39,357 nucleotides of DNA, taken from positions 1 to 39,357 of the forward strand of contig NZ_SJEW01000047.1 in assembly GCF_005930475.1 (NCBI RefSeq). The letters run 5' to 3'. The position numbers and the translations under genes were made by a program. Below are positions 10,887 through 19,072 of the stretch, in pieces. The notes below the pieces were generated by a model that had not been told where the DNA came from, did not search any database, and saw only the letters and a list, made by a program, of their open reading frames with translations. This DNA is from Modestobacter altitudinis. Its GTDB lineage: Bacteria > Actinomycetota > Actinomycetes > Mycobacteriales > Geodermatophilaceae. How positions within the stretch are numbered: the first letter of the stretch is position 1; the number at the start of each line of letters is the position of its first letter.

Positions 10887-12233
10887 TCACCGGGCGCCCG
10901 CCAGCGGGGGCAGACCCAGGTTGTCGCGCAGCGTCGTCCCCGTGTACTCGGTGCGGTACGCCCCGCGCTCCTGCAGCACCGGGACGACGGCGTCGACCAG
11001 CGGGTCCAGCCCGCCCGGGGTGATGTGCGGGACGAGGATGAAGCCGTCGCTGGCTCCCGCCTGCACCAGGTCGATCATCTGCTCGGCGATGGTGGTCGGG
11101 CTGCCGATGAAGTCCTGGTGACTGCTGATCTCGATCATCAGCTCGCGGATCGACAACCCCTCGGCCTCGGCGCGCTCCCGCCAGTCCTTCGCCACGGCGA
11201 TCGGGTCGCGGTTCATCCGCACGCTGGCTCGCCCCTTGGCCACGGTGTGCTCTCCGACCAGCGGGTCGACCTCGGGCAACGGGCCGTCGGGGTCGTAGCC
11301 GGACAGGTCCCGGTTCCAGACCTCCTCGAGCTTGCGCAGCGCCGTCTGCCCGGACACCTGCTGCCTGCGCACCTCGGCGGCGAGCTCGACGGCCTCGGCG
11401 TCGGTCTCGCCGACGACGAACGTGGCGGCCGGGAGGATCAGCAGGTCCGCCGGGGTCCGGCCGTACTCCGCCAGCCGGCCCTTGACGTCGGCGTAGAAGG
11501 CCTGCCCGGCCTCCTTCGTGCCGTGCCGGCTGAAGATCGCGTCGGCGGCGGAGGCGGCGAACTCCCGGCCCTCCTCGGAGTCGCCGGCCTGGAAGACCAC
11601 CGGCCGGCCCTGCGGGCTGCGCGGGACGTCGAACCGGCCGGCGATGTCGAAGTGCGCGTCGGAGTGGGCGAACGTCCCCGCCGCCGGGTCGGCCAGGAAG
11701 GTGCCGGTGTCCTTGTCGGCCGCGATCTCGTCCCCACGCCAGGAGTCGAGCAGCTCCTGGACGGTGGACAGGAAGGTCCGGGCCCGGTCGTAGCGCTGGT
11801 CCTGGGCCAGGAACCCGCCGCGGCGGAAGTTCTCCCCGGTGAACGCGTCCCAGGAGGTGACGACGTTCCAGGCCGCCCGGCCACCGGACAGGTGGTCCAG
11901 CGAGGCGAACTGCCGGGCCACCTCGTAGGGCTCGTTGAAGGTGGAGTTGATCGTGCCGGCCAGGCCGAGGTGCTCGGTGACCGCCGCCAGCGCGGCGAGC
12001 ACGGTGAAGGTGTCCGGGCGGCCGACGACGTCCAGGTCGTAGATCGCGCCGTTCTGCTCGCGCAGCCGCAGCCCCTCGGCAAGGAACAGGAAGTCGAACT
12101 TCCCGCGCTCGGCGGCCTGCGCGAACCGGACGAACGAGGAGAACTCGATGTGGCTGCCGGCCGCCGGGTCGCTCCACACGGTGGTGTTGTTGACGCCGGG
12201 GAAGTGCGCGGCGAGGTGGACCTGCTTGGTCAT
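10887..12233 (-). CDS. NtaA/SnaA/DszA-type FMN-dependent monooxygenase
   Basis: 448 residues, the usual length of the NtaA/SnaA/SoxA/DszA branch of luciferase-like (TIM-barrel) monooxygenases. Landmarks are HIEFSSFVRFAQAAERGKFD, FLFLAEGLRL, ASLDHLSGGRAAWNVVTSWD, AFTGENFRRGG, PQGRPVVFQAGDSEEGREF and, near the end, HQDFIGSPTTIAEQMIDLV. These enzymes use FMNH2 supplied by a separate reductase to oxidise sulfur compounds, aminopolycarboxylates or sulfides (DmoA). It is the third gene of the minus-strand operon behind the Cys-type leader peptide, 11 bases after the LLM gene. That context favours a thioether or S-substituted amino acid as substrate. Confidence 0.88.
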   Translation of the reverse strand: MTKQVHLAAHFPGVNNTTVWSDPAAGSHIEFSSFVRFAQAAERGKFDFLFLAEGLRLREQNGAIYDLDVVGRPDTFTVLAALAAVTEHLGLAGTINSTFNEPYEVARQFASLDHLSGGRAAWNVVTSWDAFTGENFRRGGFLAQDQRYDRARTFLSTVQELLDSWRGDEIAADKDTGTFLADPAAGTFAHSDAHFDIAGRFDVPRSPQGRPVVFQAGDSEEGREFAASAADAIFSRHGTKEAGQAFYADVKGRLAEYGRTPADLLILPAATFVVGETDAEAVELAAEVRRQQVSGQTALRKLEEVWNRDLSGYDPDGPLPEVDPLVGEHTVAKGRASVRMNRDPIAVAKDWRERAEAEGLSIRELMIEISSHQDFIGSPTTIAEQMIDLVQAGASDGFILVPHITPGGLDPLVDAVVPVLQERGAYRTEYTGTTLRDNLGLPPLAGAR

Positions 12234-12244
12234 GTCAGCTGTCC

Positions 12245-13399
12245 TCAGACGGTGGTGTAGCGGTTGGCGGGGCGCGGCAGACCCAGGTGACCGCGCAGGG
12301 TGGTCGCCTCGTAGGCGGTGCGGAACAGGCCGCGGCGCTGCAGCTCGGGCACCAGCCCGGTGGTGACCTGCCGCAGGTCGTGCGGCAGGGTCGCCGGCCG
12401 GAGCCGGAAGCCGGTGAGCCCGGCCTGTGCCCACTCCGCCAGCTGGTCGGCGAGCCCGGCCGGCGTCCCGACGACGACCGTGGCGTCGCTGGTGTACTCG
12501 GCACCGGCCCGCTCGTCGAGCCGGTCCTTGCGCGCCCGGGCGGTCGCCTCGTCGTCGTCGAGGAACACGACCAGGTCGCCGAAGACGTGCACCGTCTCCT
12601 CCGCCCGAGCGGCCGCGGCCTGCGCGTCCCGGACGGCGCCGACGATGCGGGTCGCGTCCGCGGCGTCGGTGGGGGTGACGAAGCCCAGGTCGGCGCTGCT
12701 GCCGACCAGCTCGAAGGGCGCCTGCTGGTGCGCCAGGGCGGCGACGATCGGCTGACCCTGCGGCGGGCGTGGGGTGATCGAGGGGCCCTTCACGGACAAG
12801 GACCGGCCCTCGAAGTCGATGTAGTGCAGCTTCTCCCGGTCGACGAACCGGCCGGTGGCGACGTCGCGGATCTCCGCGTCGTCCTCCCAACTGTCCCAGA
12901 GCCGGCGGAGCACCTCGACCCAGTCGGCGGCCTCGGCGAAGAGGTCCTCGAGGCTCAGCACCTCGCGGCGGCCGACGTGCGCCGCCTCCGCTGGGCTGCC
13001 GCTGACCTTGACCCGGACACCGGCCCGGCCGGTGCTCACGTAGTCCAGCGTGGCGATCGCCTTGGACAGGTGGAACGGCTCGGTGTGGGTGACGACAGCG
13101 GTCGGCACCAACCCGATGTTCGCCGTCAGCGGCGCCACCCGGGCGGCGACCTGGACGGCGTCCAATCGGCCGCGCACCTGGTCGGTGCGGTCGTCGGGGC
13201 CGTCGCGGTCGGTGGACTGTAGGGACAGCGCGTCCTCGAGGGTGACCAGGTCCAGCAGGCCGCGCTCGGCCTCCTGCACCAGGTCGACCCAGTAGCCGGG
13301 GGTGAGCAGGTCGGCGGGGCGGGCGTCGGGCTCGCGCCAGGCGGCGGGGTGCCAGCCGGCGCCGTCGAGGGCGACAGCGAGGTGGAGGGGGGTGCTCAT
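12245..13399 (-). CDS. LLM-class flavin-dependent oxidoreductase
   Basis: 384 residues. Luciferase-like TIM-barrel features: LLTPGYWVDLVQEAERGLLD, FHLSKAIATLDYVSTGRAGV, GPSITPRPPQGQPIVAALAH and GTPAGLADQLAEWAQAGLTG. Like its neighbour it should use reduced FMN from a partner reductase, and it sits in the second position of the operon (16 bases after the FAD/NAD(P) gene). Its C-terminal end (ELQRRGLFRTAYEATTLRGH) echoes the end of the downstream monooxygenase (VLQERGAYRTEYTGTTLRDN), which suggests a common origin of the pair. The exact substrate is not determinable; sulfur scavenging is inferred from context. Confidence 0.88.
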   Translation of the reverse strand: MSTPLHLAVALDGAGWHPAAWREPDARPADLLTPGYWVDLVQEAERGLLDLVTLEDALSLQSTDRDGPDDRTDQVRGRLDAVQVAARVAPLTANIGLVPTAVVTHTEPFHLSKAIATLDYVSTGRAGVRVKVSGSPAEAAHVGRREVLSLEDLFAEAADWVEVLRRLWDSWEDDAEIRDVATGRFVDREKLHYIDFEGRSLSVKGPSITPRPPQGQPIVAALAHQQAPFELVGSSADLGFVTPTDAADATRIVGAVRDAQAAAARAEETVHVFGDLVVFLDDDEATARARKDRLDERAGAEYTSDATVVVGTPAGLADQLAEWAQAGLTGFRLRPATLPHDLRQVTTGLVPELQRRGLFRTAYEATTLRGHLGLPRPANRYTTV

Positions 13400-13415: not shown

Positions 13416-15302
13416 TCAGGCGGCGGCCGCGACGGCGGCGCGGCCGGCGAGGGTCTGCCACAGGCGGCGGGCCAGGGCGTCGTTCTGGCGGAAGAAGGGG
13501 GCGTTGGTGCGGGGGCGGGCGAAGGCGGCGACCTGGGCGCCGGAGGTCCAGAAGCCGACCGCGAACAGCCGCTCCTTCGGCAGCCCGGTCGCGCTGACCA
13601 CCCGCTGCTCGGCGTCGACGTGCAGCCGGCCGGTGCCCGTGCCGTCCGGGACGGTCTTCTCCGCGGCGACCCCGCGGGTGACCAGGGAGCTGACCAGCCG
13701 ATCGGGGGTCGCCGACACCGCCGGGGCGGGCAGCCGGGCCTCGACCATCGTCCGGGCGCTGACCACGGAGTCGACCGAGGACGACCGTGCGGTGAACACG
13801 CCGGTGACCTCGTCGAGGTCGAAGCGGGTGTCGGCGCCGAGGAACCGGACGACGCCGGCCTCCGACAGCGCGAGCAGCTCGGCCAGCCGCGGCGCCGGCG
13901 GGCCGCTGGCCAGGTAGCTGAACAGGTTCATCCACCAGCCGGCGACGTCCTCGGCCTCCGACCGCGGCGTCAGCCGCCCGGCGGCGACCAGCCCGGCGAT
14001 CGTGCCGTGGCAGGACAGCAGGGCGGTGAAGACGGCGGCGTCGGTGCTGTGCGCCGGGTCGGCGGACCGGGTCAGGTCCGCCCGCACCAGCCCGCGCACC
14101 GCCTCCTGCAGCTCGGCGGTGGAGCCGAACCGCGCACCGGCCAGCGGCCGGTCCCGCGCCGCGAGGTCGAACCGGTCGGCCGGGTCGGGAACGGCGGCGT
14201 CGAGCAGCGCGGTCAGGTCGCCGCCGGCCGCGTAGGCGTCGGCGAACTCCGGCCAGGGCAGGGCAGTGCGCTCGGGGTGGGCGCGGAACAGCTCGGTGTA
14301 GTGCGCCCAGCCCAGCTCCCGGGCGATGACGGGGGCCAGGTCGGCGCGCAGGTCGAGCTGGCGGTCGGTGGGCAGCGCCTCCGGGGTGAAGAAGCGCAGC
14401 AGCACCGGCGGGCCGGGCCAGACGTACCCCAGCTTGGCCCGGTAGGGGACGCCGCGCCGCGACCCGACGTGCAGCACCGGCTCCTGCCCGGAGGGGAGGT
14501 AGCGCAGCCCGTCGCCGGCCGGCTCGAACCGGCCGCCGCGACCACTGGTCAGCAGCACCATCAGGTCTATGAACGCCAGCCCGGCGCCGCGGACGAGCAC
14601 GTCCTCCCCCGGCGCGAGCCGCCCGAGGTCGAGGTCGGCGGTGTAGCCGGTCGGGAGGTAGCTGAGCCCGGCGTCCGCCGCGCGCTGCGCGACGTCGCGC
14701 TCGGCGGCGGTGGCGTGGGCGTCGAGGTGGCCCTGGGCGAGCACGGCGAGGTCTGCGGGGAGCACCCCGCCGTCGGCGAGCTCGACGTCGACCCCGTCGG
14801 CGTGCACCCGGACGTCGACGACCGTGCTCTCGTGCAGGTGCACGTCGGCCCACGGTCGGGCCGCCGCGACCACCTCGCCCAGCACCCAGCCCAGGTAGGC
14901 GTTGACCAGCGGGCGGGACGGGAAGGACGTCGGCGTCACCGCGCGCGCCTCCTCCGCCACCGGGTCACCGGCCGGGAGGTGTCGCCCCACGGCCTCCACC
15001 CACTGCCACAGCGTGGTGCCCTCGCCCACCGGTCCGTCGACGGTCACCGACGGGTCGGGCAGCACCGTGACGTCGGCGGCCAGCGAGTTCGCCCACAGCA
15101 GCGCAGGCTGGGCGGCGCGCCAGACGCGCCCTCCGCCGGGCGGGTGCGGGTCGATCAGGTGTACCTGCAGCCGGCCGGTGCCGCTCAGCTCAGGCGCGCT
15201 GGCGACCAGCCGTTCGAGCAGGCCGATGGCCGTGGGTCCGGCGCCGACGACGGCGATGGACGGGCCGGCGGGGACGGGATCGTGCGGGGGTGACGCGGAC
15301 AT
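13416..15302 (-). CDS. FAD/NAD(P)-binding protein (NAD_binding_9 type)
   Basis: 628 residues. A Rossmann dinucleotide fold opens the protein (IAVVGAGPTAIGLLERL), followed by LIDPHPPGGGRVWRAAQPAL and LWANSLAADVTVLPD, the layout of the FAD-NAD(P)-binding NAD_binding_9 group. VLVRGAGLAFIDLMVLLTSG is the second nucleotide loop. LFAVGFWTSGAQVAAFARPR near the C-terminus closes the FAD site. The role is uncertain: it may be a flavin monooxygenase or oxidoreductase acting with the two FMN enzymes downstream. It is the first structural gene of the operon, beginning 22 bases after the stop of the leader peptide. Confidence 0.82.
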   Translation of the reverse strand: MSASPPHDPVPAGPSIAVVGAGPTAIGLLERLVASAPELSGTGRLQVHLIDPHPPGGGRVWRAAQPALLWANSLAADVTVLPDPSVTVDGPVGEGTTLWQWVEAVGRHLPAGDPVAEEARAVTPTSFPSRPLVNAYLGWVLGEVVAAARPWADVHLHESTVVDVRVHADGVDVELADGGVLPADLAVLAQGHLDAHATAAERDVAQRAADAGLSYLPTGYTADLDLGRLAPGEDVLVRGAGLAFIDLMVLLTSGRGGRFEPAGDGLRYLPSGQEPVLHVGSRRGVPYRAKLGYVWPGPPVLLRFFTPEALPTDRQLDLRADLAPVIARELGWAHYTELFRAHPERTALPWPEFADAYAAGGDLTALLDAAVPDPADRFDLAARDRPLAGARFGSTAELQEAVRGLVRADLTRSADPAHSTDAAVFTALLSCHGTIAGLVAAGRLTPRSEAEDVAGWWMNLFSYLASGPPAPRLAELLALSEAGVVRFLGADTRFDLDEVTGVFTARSSSVDSVVSARTMVEARLPAPAVSATPDRLVSSLVTRGVAAEKTVPDGTGTGRLHVDAEQRVVSATGLPKERLFAVGFWTSGAQVAAFARPRTNAPFFRQNDALARRLWQTLAGRAAVAAAA

Positions 15303-15324
15303 GCGGACTCCGTTGAACGGAGGG

Positions 15325-15420
15325 TCAGGGGCGCGGGGTCCAGACCGTGCGCCGACACTGCGCGCTCGCCGTCCGCAGGAGGTCGACGTGCCGGCGGCAG
15401 ACCAGCGGGGTGCGGGGCAC
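15325..15420 (-). CDS. Putative sulfur-gene leader peptide (RRHVDLLR type)
   Basis: A 31-codon ORF: MPRTPLVCRRHVDLLRTASA followed by QCRRTVWTPRP. The CRRHVDLLR core with Cys codons before and after it (positions 8 and 22) matches the short 'putative leader peptides' repeatedly found just upstream of sulfur-uptake and sulfur-oxidation operons in Streptomyces and relatives. GAAGGAG lies 6 bases before the GTG start. The stop is 22 bases before the FAD/NAD(P)-binding gene. Inference: ribosome stalling at Cys codons, or coupling across this ORF, adjusts expression of the operon to cysteine supply. No terminator/antiterminator pair is obvious in the 22-base gap, so translational coupling is at least as likely as transcription attenuation. 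Confidence 0.75.
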   Translation of the reverse strand: MPRTPLVCRRHVDLLRTASAQCRRTVWTPRP

Positions 15421-15493
15421 GTGCGTCTCCTTCCGGTGTCCGGGTGCCTGGGGCAACTCCGGCCGGGGGGCGGGCTGTTCCCCTTCGGCGGGT

Positions 15494-15536
15494 GCGTCAA
15501 CTCACGATGTCCCATCAAGTCGATCGTGATTGACGC
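15494..15536. promoter_or_regulatory. Near-perfect inverted repeat between the divergent sulfur units
   Basis: The left arm GCGTCAACTCACGAT (15494-15508) and the right arm ATCGTGATTGACGC (15523-15536) are reverse complements except for one extra C in the left arm, with 14 bases between. The right arm contains the -35 box of the riboswitch promoter, and the left arm carries an outward-facing TTGACG on the other strand. This is what an operator controlling both divergent transcripts would look like. The regulator is not in the window. Confidence 0.55.
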
Positions 15537-15559
15537 GTGGCCGGGCGTGTCCCTATCGT
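15530..15559 (+). promoter_or_regulatory. Sigma70-type promoter of the SAM-IV riboswitch transcript
   Basis: TTGACG (15530-15535), an 18-base spacer and TATCGT (15554-15559) form a good housekeeping promoter. The predicted start falls at about 15566, within the first base pairs of the riboswitch P1 stem. Confidence 0.65.
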
Positions 15560-15563
15560 CCCC

Positions 15564-15646
15564 CCAGGTCCTGAGCGCCAGCGACGAGCCCCGGCTCGCT
15601 GGCCGGCAACCCTCCCTGCGACGGGGTGCACCGGGTGACGACCTGG
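15564..15646 (+). ncRNA. SAM-IV riboswitch
   Basis: The sequence carries the SAM-I/SAM-IV core: CTGAGCGCCAGC, GAGCCCCGGCTC, GCTGGCCGGCAACCCTCC, a GGGGTGC segment and CCGGGTGACGACC. P1 pairs CCAGGTC (15564-15570) with GACCTGG (15640-15646). P2 pairs GCCAGC (15577-15582) with GCTGGC (15598-15603). The P2 loop CCCGG can pair with the late CCGGG (15631-15635), the pseudoknot that marks SAM-IV, the actinobacterial class. It binds S-adenosylmethionine and normally switches off genes for methionine or sulfur acquisition. Downstream are a short ORF, a GNAT gene and a broken ABC permease. A small hairpin (15680-15696) before the ribosome binding site of the short ORF may belong to the expression platform. 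Confidence 0.88.
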
Positions 15647-15679
15647 CCGTGGCGCATCCGCGCCCGGCAAGCAGAGGAC

Positions 15680-15696
15680 TCCCCTCCCCGAGGGGA
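15680..15696 (+). promoter_or_regulatory. Hairpin in the riboswitch expression platform
   Basis: TCCCCTC, loop CCC, GAGGGGA form a perfect 7-bp stem directly before the AGGAG of the following short ORF. It has no U-run, so it is not a normal terminator. It may influence access to the ribosome binding site in response to the riboswitch state. Confidence 0.4.
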
Positions 15697-15715
15697 CGAA
15701 CGAGGAGCAGCACCC

Positions 15716-15814
15716 GTGGGACAGACCGGCATCCGTGCCGCCACCACCGACCTGGTCGATCGGCCGGCCGTCGACCCTGCTGCGCACCGACAGCGCGCTC
15801 TGTCGCTGACCTGA
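15716..15814 (+). CDS. 32-residue ORF downstream of the SAM-IV riboswitch
   Basis: MGQTGIRAATTDLVDRPAVD followed by PAAHRQRALSLT. The GTG start has AGGAG eight bases upstream, a proper spacing. I do not recognise the peptide; it has no Cys and no Met beyond the start, so it is not an obvious attenuation peptide. It ends 70 bases before the GNAT gene. It could be a real small protein, a leader peptide translated under riboswitch control, or the truncated beginning of a lost gene. Confidence 0.45.
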   Translation: MGQTGIRAATTDLVDRPAVDPAAHRQRALSLT

Positions 15815-15884: not shown

Positions 15885-16427
15885 ATGTCCACGTCCCAGT
15901 CCTCGCACGCCCTGCAGGTCGTCCGCGTGCACCCCGACGACCCGCTGGCCGCACCGCTGTTCACCGACCTCGCCGTCGAGTACGACACCCGCTACGGCGA
16001 CCTGTTCGGCGGCGCGTCGGAGGAGCTGACCCGCTACCCCGCCGAGGCGTTCCTGCCCCCGGACGGCGACTTCCTGCTGCTGGTCGAGGACGGCGTCGCG
16101 GTCGCCGGCGGCGCGTTCATGCGGCACCCCTCCGGCTCCGCCGAGGTCAAGCGGATGTGGACCGCCGCGTCGCACCGCCGCGGCGGGCTGGCCCGCCGGG
16201 TGCTCATGCTGCTGGAGCAGCAGGCGGCCGCGGCCGGCTACGCCCGGATGTACCTGACCACCGGCCCGCGCCAACCCGAGGCGCGCGACCTGTACCTCGC
16301 CGCCGGCTGGACGCCGCTGTTCGACCCGGCGGTCCCCCGCCCCACCGACACCGACGCGCTGCGCGCCCTGCCCGTCGACCAGCGCCTCTACGCCTTCGAG
16401 AGGCAGCTCCCGGGAGACCGCTCATGA
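15885..16427 (+). CDS. GNAT-family N-acetyltransferase of the sulfur locus
   Basis: 180 residues. After an N-terminal stretch LQVVRVHPDDPLAAPLFTDL, VEVKRMWTAASHRRGGLARR equivalents (read here as AEVKRMWTAASHRRGGLARR) form the acetyl-CoA loop, followed by YLTTGPRQPEARDLYLAAGW, the usual last strand-helix. CAGGAG lies 11 bases before the ATG. Its position behind a SAM riboswitch, next to two FMN monooxygenases and just ahead of a broken amino-acid ABC permease, matches the acetyltransferases of the Bacillus yxe and ytm operons (YxeL, YtmI). Those N-acetylate S-modified cysteines so that a luciferase-like monooxygenase can open the thioether. The function is inferred from this context. It overlaps the permease pseudogene by ATGA. 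Confidence 0.85.
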   Translation: MSTSQSSHALQVVRVHPDDPLAAPLFTDLAVEYDTRYGDLFGGASEELTRYPAEAFLPPDGDFLLLVEDGVAVAGGAFMRHPSGSAEVKRMWTAASHRRGGLARRVLMLLEQQAAAAGYARMYLTTGPRQPEARDLYLAAGWTPLFDPAVPRPTDTDALRALPVDQRLYAFERQLPGDRS

Positions 16428-16770
16428 CCACGGTGGAGACTCGTGCCGCTGCCCGGGCCACCGCCCCGCCGCCGGGCACGCCCACGGCCAGCTGACGGTG
16501 GTGCAACCCGGCACCGCGGCCGCTGGGTCGCCACCGCCGTCGTAGCCTGCCGCCGGCCATGGTGCTCAACAGCCTGGGCACCGACCCGCGCTGGAAGTGG
16601 GACGTCGTCGGCGCCGACCTCACCGAGGGGGCGATCGTCGCGGCGTGCTGACCACCGTCCAGCTGACCGCGATCACCGCGTGCTCTGCTCCCCGCTGGGC
16701 ACGGTGCCGGTGTTGATGCGGCTGAGCCACTCGCCGCTCGTCCGACGACGGCAGCTGCCCGGGACACTGG
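16425..16770 (+). pseudogene. Decayed amino-acid ABC transporter permease
   Basis: An ATG overlapping the GNAT stop opens a 23-codon reading (MTTVETRAAARATAPPPG...) that stops at 16496. Then, in changing frames, come RHRGRWVATAVVA, MVLNSLGTDPRWKWDVVGAD, GVLTTVQLTAITA and LGTVPVLMRLSHSPLVRR. These are, in order, the N-terminal segment of a His/Glu/Met-type amino-acid permease ('WxWDVVGxYL', 'G...TLQLT', 'GxxLAxMRLSxSPLxR'). At least three frame breaks separate them and everything after the first membrane helices is gone. The ATP-binding and substrate-binding partners are not in the window. This is the wreck of the transporter expected in a sulfur-amino-acid scavenging operon. Confidence 0.72.
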
Positions 16771-16909
16771 AGCGCTGGTGGCCGTCGGACGGGGCCGTCG
16801 ACGCACCGGTGATCAGGCCGGGCACGTCCGCTGCCCGTCGTCAGCCGTGACCGGTTGTCCACAGGACCTTGTCCGCGCTGGTCAGCGGCTCGCTCGACGA
16901 CCATCATCG

Positions 16910-16925
16910 TCGAACACGTGTTCGA
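16910..16925 (+). promoter_or_regulatory. LexA (SOS) box
   Basis: TCGAACACGTGTTCGA is a perfect match to the actinobacterial LexA consensus TCGAAC-N4-GTTCGA. It overlaps the GTG start of the DUF222/HNH pseudogene, so that the right half-site encodes the first residues (M-F-D). Several 13E12/DUF222 genes of mycobacteria are known SOS genes, which supports a functional origin. Confidence 0.75.
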
Positions 16926-17455
16926 CTACGTGTACGTCACTGAGCCGCCCGACGGCGGAGCGTGCGCGGCCGACACCGGGGGCGACCACGACGCCGTTTC
17001 CAGCCCCGGGCCAGCACCCGCCTCCACTGCGGAAGAGGGGTGGCCGGACGAGCTCTTCACTCCTCTGCGAGAGTCGCTGGAGGACGGCGGGCTGCTGCTC
17101 GACCTGCTTCGTGAGGAGCAGCAGGCCATCGGAGCGGCGGAGGCGCTGCGCGCTCGCTGGATGGTCGACTTCTGCCGGTCCCGCCCCTCTTCGAACGACC
17201 GCGCGGACGCCGAGATCGGCATCAGCGCATGGCCGACTGCCTCGTCGACCTGGTGCTGCGGCCGGGCGCCCACGGGCTCGCCCCGGTCCAGGCGCAGCTG
17301 ACCATCATCGCCACCGTGCGCACCCCACCACCCCGACCGGCCAGGTGCTCGTGACCCACCCCGGGGGGCTGACCGACGACGACCCACCGCCCGGACGCAG
17401 CGACGGGCCGCCACCCGGGGTGGCTCCCCCGGCCGACGACCCGCCACCGTTCTGA
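16918..17455 (+). pseudogene. DUF222/HNH endonuclease (13E12 type) remnant
   Basis: From the GTG within the SOS box, the first frame gives FDYVYVTEPPDGG and, after a variable acidic stretch, EALRARWMVDFCRSRPSSND, like the N-terminal part of DUF222 proteins. The next frame, from 17229, reads MADCLVDLVLRPGAHGLAPV and QAQLTIIATV, a middle block typical of the Geodermatophilaceae versions. A third frame ends with LVTHPGGLTDDDPPPG and a Pro-rich tail. The helical core and the HNH domain are missing. It is therefore a relic with frameshifts and large deletions. Confidence 0.7.
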
Positions 17456-18269: not shown

Positions 18270-18510
18270 TCAGGCCACCTCACTGAGCCGGCCGGTGGCG
18301 ACGTCGAAGACGACGCCCCGGACGCTGTCCTCGTTCGGGATGTACGGGCTGTCCAGGATGCGCCTGGGGGAGGCACGGACGTCGTCCTCCAGGTCGGCGA
18401 ACGCCTCTGGGTGCCACTCGGGTCACCGGCCGACCTCGGTCTCGATGCCGGACCGAAGTCCTCGTCGTCGGGGTGAGCATCCCGCAGTACTCGTGACCTG
18501 TCCCGAGAGT
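18270..18510 (-). pseudogene. Beta-carbonic anhydrase 3' remnant
   Basis: Reading the minus strand towards 18270: LGTGHEYCGMLT (normally 'LGT..V.VIHHT.CGMLTF', so the zinc ligands His and Cys are still visible), then a shifted frame with DDEDF, then PEWHPEAFADLEDDVRAS and SPYIPNEDSVRGVVFDVATG ending RLSEVA. This is the C-terminal half of a small actinobacterial beta-class carbonic anhydrase ('SPF.P..D.VRGFVYDV.TG.L.EV'). An in-frame TGA before PEWHPE and at least two frame changes show decay. The 5' half has been replaced by the upstream region of the divergent FMN reductase gene. Confidence 0.7.
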
Positions 18511-18562
18511 GGCGGACGACCGATCTGCCGTCGAAGTGCATCGACATGGTGGGATCCGCAGT

Positions 18563-19072
18563 GTGAGCACCATCGCCGTCGTCGGCAACCCGAGGCCCCG
18601 CTCCCGCACCCGGTCGGCCGCCGAGCTCGTCGTCGAGCGGCTGACCGGCGCCCCGCCGGACCGGGTCGTCGACGTCATCGACCTCGGCGCCGGCCTGCTG
18701 AGCTGGGGCGACCCGGATGTCGCTGACGCGGTGACCGCGCTGCGCGAGGCCGAGGTCGCCGTCGTCGCCAGCCCGACGTACAAGGCCACCTACACCGGGC
18801 TGCTCAAGCTGTTCCTGGACCAGGTGGGCACCGGCGACCTGGCCGGGGTGGTGGCCGTCCCGCTGATGCTCGGCGGCGGCCCGGGGCACGCGCTGGCGCC
18901 GGACCTGCTGCTCAAGCCGGTGCTGGTCGAGCTGGGCGCCACCACCCCGACCAGGGGCCTGTACCTGATCGACAACGCGTGGGACTCCCCCGGTCCGCTG
19001 GAGGACTGGCTGGTCGCCGCCGGGCCGCAGGTCAGCGCCGCCCGCACCGCCGGACGCCCGACCCTAGGCTGA
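18563..19072 (+). CDS. NADPH-dependent FMN reductase
   Basis: 169 residues. Flavodoxin-like fold: STIAVVGNPRPRSRTRSAAE is the phosphate-binding loop, and VVASPTYKATYTGLLKLFLD is the 'SPxYxxSxxGxLKxxxD' signature of SsuE/MsuE-type reductases; PLMLGGGPGHALAPD follows. These enzymes reduce FMN with NADPH and pass FMNH2 to two-component monooxygenases such as SsuD or the NtaA/DmoA type. It is the only such reductase in the window, 6 kb from the monooxygenase operon, so it is a reasonable partner. The GTG at 18563 starts one residue before the first strand. It is followed after four bases by the ABM gene. Confidence 0.85.
   Translation: MSTIAVVGNPRPRSRTRSAAELVVERLTGAPPDRVVDVIDLGAGLLSWGDPDVADAVTALREAEVAVVASPTYKATYTGLLKLFLDQVGTGDLAGVVAVPLMLGGGPGHALAPDLLLKPVLVELGATTPTRGLYLIDNAWDSPGPLEDWLVAAGPQVSAARTAGRPTLG

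Follow-up and report, generated by a model that had tools for sequence, protein, structure and literature searches.

Leader attenuators that carry short Cys ORFs are known ahead of sulfur genes in actinobacteria (Seliverstov 2005, PMC1262725; Shell 2015, PMC4633059), and Rho was proposed in 2005 to act at the mycobacterial Cys leaders (PMC1262725). The locus analyzed here resembles these attenuators, as they are presented in the accessible parts of both papers, in having a short Cys ORF before sulfur genes and no classical terminator. Unlike in those parts, a leader lies here directly behind a SAM-IV aptamer, and it has a single near-terminal TGT and no cysteine run. NCBI groups actinobacterial Cys leader peptides in NF042934 and related models. 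In S. lividans, a SAM-IV riboswitch of the same RF00634 family has been described ahead of a cysteine desulfurase gene, and the available portion of that report mentions no leader peptide with it (PMC8079986); the SAM-IV elements ahead of class V aminotransferases in our sample were likewise without a leader (0 of 92 among the matches listed). In M. tuberculosis, uORFs under riboswitches have been described for B12 (PMC11260477) and for Mg (Mbox, PMC12810186), with the same succession of aptamer, translated uORF and main gene as here, and one Mbox uORF contains four Cys codons. Those riboswitches have other ligands, however, and the accessible text of both reports does not describe the uORFs as amino-acid-sensing leaders. 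As far as the available parts of these sources extend, Cys leaders and SAM-IV riboswitches are known apart from each other, and the combination of a riboswitch with a uORF has been described for B12 and Mg.

The ubiG operon of C. acetobutylicum reportedly carries a Cys T-box, and polycysteine attenuators of the type named after Canestrari (2020) are said to contain a run of consecutive cysteine codons. Such a run is absent from both leaders of the present locus, which have scattered, isolated Cys codons. For the ubiG operon an antisense SAM riboswitch has been described (PMC9943018), and the likeness, judged from the accessible part of that source, is that cysteine and SAM signals meet on one sulfur locus. 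Control of ubiG is convergent and antisense, whereas here the SAM-IV riboswitch and the minus-strand operon are divergent, as are their promoters, and the tandem lies on a single mRNA. Two RNA sensors in series also occur in tandem riboswitches of the SAM-II/SAM-V kind, as given in the accessible part of PMC11508383; in the present case the second sensor is a translated peptide, with no aptamer. Riboswitches are usually treated as an alternative to amino-acid leader peptides; here one follows the other on a single mRNA. No report of a SAM-IV and Cys leader pairing was found among the matches listed in the open-licence literature, an absence that is weak evidence because subscription journals lie mostly outside that search.

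The DNA analyzed (hereafter the window) is an entire 39,357-base contig of the Modestobacter altitudinis genome. A covariance-model search identified a SAM-IV riboswitch aptamer at 15567-15679 on the plus strand (RF00634, 84.6 bits, gathering score 38), which covered all 116 model positions (1-116 of 116; E 7e-14) and was the sole Rfam match in the window at the gathering threshold. From its family, the aptamer is expected to bind SAM and to lower expression. On the minus strand, an ORF of 31 amino acids at 15325-15420 (GTG 15420-15418 to TGA 15327-15325) encodes MPRTPLVCRRHVDLLRTASAQCRRTVWTPRP, with a conserved Cys codon TGT within ..SAQC.., and matches the NCBIfam model NF042934 'putative leader peptide' (29.8 bits, cut-off 27). 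A sequence-only reading had named both elements, a Cys-type leader on the minus strand and a full SAM-IV core on the plus strand, and their divergent arrangement, and these claims are supported by the model searches; the interval that it delimited, 15325-15646, starts exactly at the stop codon of the peptide and cuts off the SAM-IV end by 33 bases. Motifs read directly from the letters are the Shine-Dalgarno AAGGAG of the minus leader (15427-15432, minus strand), a putative -10 TATCGT of the plus arm (15554-15559, plus strand), given which the plus-arm transcript would start at SAM-IV P1, and an inverted repeat CTCCG-TTCAA-CGGAG (15308-15322, minus strand), which would mask the Shine-Dalgarno of the FAD/NAD(P) gene. 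This anti-Shine-Dalgarno pairing, judged by eye, is alike in Modestobacter-group relatives and absent in Klenkia.

The first minus-arm gene encodes an FAD/NAD(P)-binding protein (13416-15302; PF13454, 128.5 bits) and is followed on the same strand by genes for two LLM-class flavin monooxygenases. One is NtaA/DmoA-like (12245-13399; PF00296; TIGR03860 278.6 bits, just below the cut-off of 279.7); the second (10887-12233; TIGR03860 409.4 bits, above the cut-off) has MoxC/YtnJ as its best PDB sequence match (6ask, E 1.1e-80). A flavin reductase comes next in the minus arm of L038, with matches also in L034, L036 and L251. First on the plus arm is the gene for a GNAT acetyltransferase (15885-16427, plus strand; PF00583, 43.9 bits), whose substrate we read from the context because its matches to solved structures are weak. 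With the window and the locus of Modestobacter excelsi (L230) set aside, a permease gene was found by tblastn 3′ of GNAT in 12 of the 14 stretches from relatives, most of them also having an ATPase and either one or two solute-binding proteins (shown by Pfam for L038 and L232, and by tblastn), and the plus arm in most relatives consists of GNAT and an amino-acid ABC transporter. The permease, intact in relatives, is present in the window as a remnant at 16430-16683 (plus strand; tblastn pieces and a search of the own genome). The stretch 16430-17455 after GNAT holds decayed coding remnants, this permease fragment and then further broken pieces; in M. excelsi, solely the tail of a solute-binding protein was matched downstream of GNAT.

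Further along the plus strand, an NADPH-dependent FMN reductase (18509-19072; PF03358, 75.4 bits) could plausibly supply flavin to the monooxygenases; the Rfam scan of the window placed no SAM-IV next to it. In some relatives, extra SAM-IV elements lie before a class V aminotransferase (L037 at 2283, L038 at 17334, L039 at 18597 and L045 at 9243), 32-69 nt from the match start of a divergent FMN reductase. We take the gene set of the locus to resemble the S-alkylcysteine salvage systems of B. subtilis, with a likeness to the ytmI operon. S-alkylcysteine salvage is the topic of PMC10863075, PMC9706529 and PMC12757645, to judge by the accessible parts of these papers. The FAD/NAD(P) protein, the two LLM monooxygenases, GNAT and the ABC transporter indicate that the locus is probably a divergent organosulfur scavenging unit under RNA control, of S-alkylcysteine type as regards the substrate suggested by context; the earlier proposal of one organosulfur locus is therefore retained as probable.

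Overlooked in the sequence-only reading was a second Cys-type leader behind the riboswitch. It was present between SAM-IV and the next gene in all 17 Geodermatophilaceae loci with SAM-IV (17/17), so that the order on the plus strand is SAM-IV, leader, gene, and its C-terminus in these relatives reads ..VDLLRTDSALCR-stop or a near variant. Across 20 relatives, the uORF starts 14-36 nt past the aptamer, usually behind GAGGAG, and is 93-123 nt long; its 3′ end is TGT CGC TGA in 20/20, the pattern used to find it having contained this ending and no tried locus having failed the pattern. In the window, the corresponding Shine-Dalgarno GAGGAG is at 15702-15707 (plus strand), with GGAG invariant in 17 aligned loci. 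The leader assignment also leans on a shared ..VDLLRT.SALC.. core. When six plus uORFs of GNAT loci were compared with NF042934, the one from Blastococcus (L251) reached 30.4 bits and the other five 17.9-19.7 bits. Of 75 codon differences from the consensus in the uORF frame, 36 were synonymous (48%; 31% expected), and in the other two frames 7 of 74 and 10 of 82 were. By this excess of synonymous changes in its own frame, the uORF is shown at the level of the alignment to be coding.

To survey relatives, we aligned ten GNAT proteins and scanned GTDB genomes with the result, which yielded 35 loci; loci without GNAT are invisible to this survey because it was seeded on the plus-arm GNAT. Nineteen of the 35 belong to Modestobacter, Klenkia, Geodermatophilus, Goekera, Trujillonella, Blastococcus and one unclassified member of Geodermatophilaceae; L230 is truncated by the contig start, which leaves 18 Geodermatophilaceae loci for counts. 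The Rfam scan left out six distant loci (L257-L262). SAM-IV was detected in 17 of the 18, L233 being the exception. The FAD/NAD(P) gene was found in 15 of the 18, those in which it was not found in the examined stretch being L234, L235 and L238, and all 15 have the divergent leader. Conservation of the pair in relatives that have the minus operon, one of the points on which the sequence-only reading had staked its proposal, was confirmed: SAM-IV and the divergent leader occur together in 14 of these 15 loci, so their pairing exceeds chance. Since DNA matches across both elements were obtained for 6 of 22 same-genus genomes, not every member of the genus has the locus. No SAM-IV was detected in the 10 more distant GNAT loci scanned (0/10); a Cys leader-like ORF was observed in five distant Streptomyces/Kitasatospora GNAT loci (L247-L249, L252 and L255), the one in L247 scoring below the NF042934 cut-off. 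In L233 (Modestobacter sp. RYN_176; the same contig as L042), GNAT and the minus leader are present and SAM-IV and the plus leader are both missing. In L043, the leader and the FAD/NAD(P) gene are present, with no SAM-IV and no GNAT within the 8,000 bases examined.

The tandem of SAM-IV and leader recurs beyond this locus. We compiled 110 SAM-IV elements from a class survey (the best-scoring among the matches listed, 296 genomes), 72 from a family survey and 85 from an order survey (both among the matches listed) and 20 from relatives, in total 287, of which 277 remained after the removal of 10 duplicates; 3 of the 85 order elements and 4 of the 110 class elements lack the simple core-motif check, all being Rfam hits above the cut-off. 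With a tandem defined as a same-strand leader at most 500 nt downstream of SAM-IV and scoring at least 10 bits, a leader was found at 47 of the 277 elements examined (among the matches listed), a number that includes the window's own remaining frame and many orthologues. These tandems fall in eight actinobacterial families (f1, f2, f3, f4, f16, f32, f43 and f48), and in the two control orientations nothing reached 10 bits in the class, family or order survey. Because circularity was to be avoided, the profile was rebuilt from divergent leaders only. This divergent-only HMM detected 26 same-strand downstream ORFs in the class, family and relatives sets (one element counted twice), where no control reached 10 bits (best 9.2), and 20 matches in the order set, where the best control scored 8.9.

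The tandem leaders are unevenly distributed over the genes that follow. Gene classes were set by tblastn against a few references, of which the labels MetY, MetX, class V aminotransferase, FMN reductase, LLM and two solute-binding proteins were confirmed by Pfam and NCBIfam; the reference L046 is PnrA-like. Among the matches listed, a leader followed SAM-IV in 0 of 89 elements ahead of MetY/MetX and in 42 of 60 whose next gene encodes a GNAT, an LLM monooxygenase, a flavin reductase or part of an ABC transporter (GNAT 17/17, ABC transporter 17/21, LLM 7/20, flavin reductase 1/2). Without the 17 orthologous GNAT loci, the leader was still present in 25 of 43 (among the matches listed). Comparing MetY/MetX with the 60 gave Fisher p values of 4e-23 and, without the orthologous GNAT loci, 1e-15, which overstate the preference because the loci are related. 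The class V aminotransferases (0/92) were counted apart because their reference is cysteine-desulfurase-like (SufS model, below its cut-off). In the remaining classes, again among the matches listed, the leader was found ahead of cysteine dioxygenase in 1/1, PnrA-like binding proteins in 0/3 and unassigned genes in 4/32. In the window genome itself, the other SAM-IV is ahead of an O-acetylhomoserine sulfhydrylase gene and has no leader. A rule that scavenging means a leader is not strict, given the class V aminotransferases and the 7 of 20 LLM genes; in some relatives, class V aminotransferase genes adjoin the FMN reductase of the same cluster, yet they are without a leader. Scavenging and uptake operons thus often have both sensors, and the methionine-synthesis genes in the sample have the riboswitch alone. 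One tandem, in L323 (1279-1914), is ahead of a gene for a cysteine dioxygenase type I protein (PF05995, 65.5 bits).

We consider it fairly probable that the best explanation of these observations is a divergent scavenging unit with a gate that makes sulfur scavenging and uptake depend on two signals. The order of aptamer, leader and gene suggests two checks in series. An intact plus transcript would carry, in this order, SAM-IV, a short uORF with a near-terminal UGU, a C-rich stretch, GNAT and the ABC transporter. When SAM is high, the aptamer would fold and the transcript would be blocked, probably via a hidden uORF start and Rho termination; when SAM is low, the uORF would be translated. With plentiful Cys-tRNA, the ribosome would complete the uORF and depart, leaving the C-rich stretch exposed, whereas with scarce Cys-tRNA it would stall on UGU, one sense codon before the stop, and would cover the start of the C-rich stretch, so that expression is allowed. 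The 60 nt after the plus-leader stop average 53% C and 26% G in 21 loci, which fits Rho loading; their C-richness lies at the 90th percentile or above of 8,006 background windows, these being all windows of the loci, unmatched for intergenic position. What the sequences themselves show is the presence of the elements, the order in which they stand, their conservation, the coding character of the leader and its preference for certain gene classes; from the serial checks on SAM and Cys-tRNA, we infer the ligand responses, the role of Rho and, on the plus arm, an AND gate that would open when SAM and cysteine are both low. The minus arm, with the FAD/NAD(P) protein and the two LLM monooxygenases, would read cysteine alone. 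More tentatively, and as a serious possibility, the gate may be nested, the aptamer setting leader translation and UGU setting continuation, and may have been added to scavenging and uptake operons (42 of the 60) and to none of the 89 MetY/MetX elements among the matches listed. If this is true, costly organosulfur use would be switched on only when cysteine and SAM are both short.

A simpler arrangement, which we regard as rather unlikely, is that SAM-IV works by itself, either at the level of transcription or at the main gene, and that the uORF tunes translation of the first gene without cysteine sensing. The M. tuberculosis riboswitch uORFs offer a precedent, since in the accessible text of PMC11260477 and PMC12810186 they modulate downstream genes with no stated amino-acid sensing, and the four Cys codons of the Mbox uORF, which stand among rare codons, are interpreted there as a matter of poor elongation (PMC12810186). 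Folding is also compatible with this arrangement, as no specific attenuator structure is supported by folding energies at the plus leader. A hairpin between the aptamer and the uORF Shine-Dalgarno (15680-15696, plus strand) appears in the minimum-energy fold of the window; its energy is not beyond that of shuffles, its sequence is absent in L236 and L039 among the 17 aligned loci, and other folds win in L232, L235 and L237. A second candidate, CGACAG..CUGUCG in the uORF end, was drawn in many folds and was rejected, its energy being not beyond shuffles and the helix being broken in L251.

The properties of the peptides point the other way and favor the two-signal gate over control by SAM-IV alone. 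Eight of the 22 tandem leaders tried from relatives pass the NCBI leader-peptide model NF042934 at its cut-off of 27 (L107 28.0, L145 40.2, L179 27.5, L251 30.4, L304 29.3, L309 34.2, L317 31.3 and L305 31.6 bits), the remaining 14 scoring 17.9 to 25.8 bits; these lower scores, and the scattered single Cys codons in place of polycysteine runs, count against the gate. In 42 of the 47 tandem leaders TGT serves as the final Cys codon, and over all their Cys codons TGT outnumbers TGC by 54 to 28; in the window, TGT is the less used Cys codon (1 TGT vs 28 TGC in 19 ORFs chosen by codon composition). The empty MetY/MetX class (0 of 89 among the matches listed) also speaks against SAM-IV acting alone, and in the window 75 nt separate the leader stop from the GNAT start, with no overlap.

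Quite improbable, in our judgment, is a division of labor in which the minus arm answers to cysteine and the plus arm to SAM alone, without a second leader. This is the split that the sequence-only reading had put forward, and of it the two elements stand and the one-signal-per-strand assignment does not, because in relatives the SAM-IV arm has its own Cys-type leader and would therefore read both signals in series. The split may hold for this one strain. In the window, the plus leader ORF from the conserved start (15716-15814, plus strand) does not share the frame of the conserved Cys end, and the transporter operon has decayed, intact copies of both being found in relatives. The frame that remains (15735-15809, plus strand), with the end ..LLRTDSALCR and the Cys codon TGT at 15801-15803, scores 22.2 bits with the custom leader HMM and matched none of the NCBIfam models up to E 10, NF042934 with its cut-off of 27 included. 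For the locus family as a whole, however, one signal per arm is already contradicted: the second leader is present in 17/17 SAM-IV relatives at the locus, and tandem leaders occur in other families.

Upstream of the riboswitch, a promoter block at 15508-15535, an imperfect palindrome around CGATCG that ends in the plus-arm -35 TTGACG, is kept in 17 loci, which were aligned via their own TTGACG, missing in none. The block is a possible protein operator, overlapping the plus -35, and may add protein control to the RNA control. That regulation rests mainly with a conserved DNA-binding repressor at this block, the RNA elements playing a lesser part, is very improbable, for, although the CGATCG...TTGACG block is also kept in L234, L235 and L238, three loci in which the search met no divergent operon, such a repressor leaves aptamer conservation and codon-level conservation of the plus peptide unexplained, and the block may be mere promoter sequence. 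An McbR-like promoter site was also considered and does not fit. A c-di-AMP riboswitch (48.8 bits) was detected at 9769-9915 of L238.

The two-signal gate suggests a role for some of the short ORFs behind actinobacterial riboswitches, and the tandems would offer a naturally occurring collection of two-input RNA gates that is open to testing and to evolutionary comparison. Divergent SAM-IV pairs were observed in L309, L311, L160 and L161, and in L316 (1001-1568) two SAM-IV elements stand back to back on opposite strands, each with its own Cys-type leader behind it.
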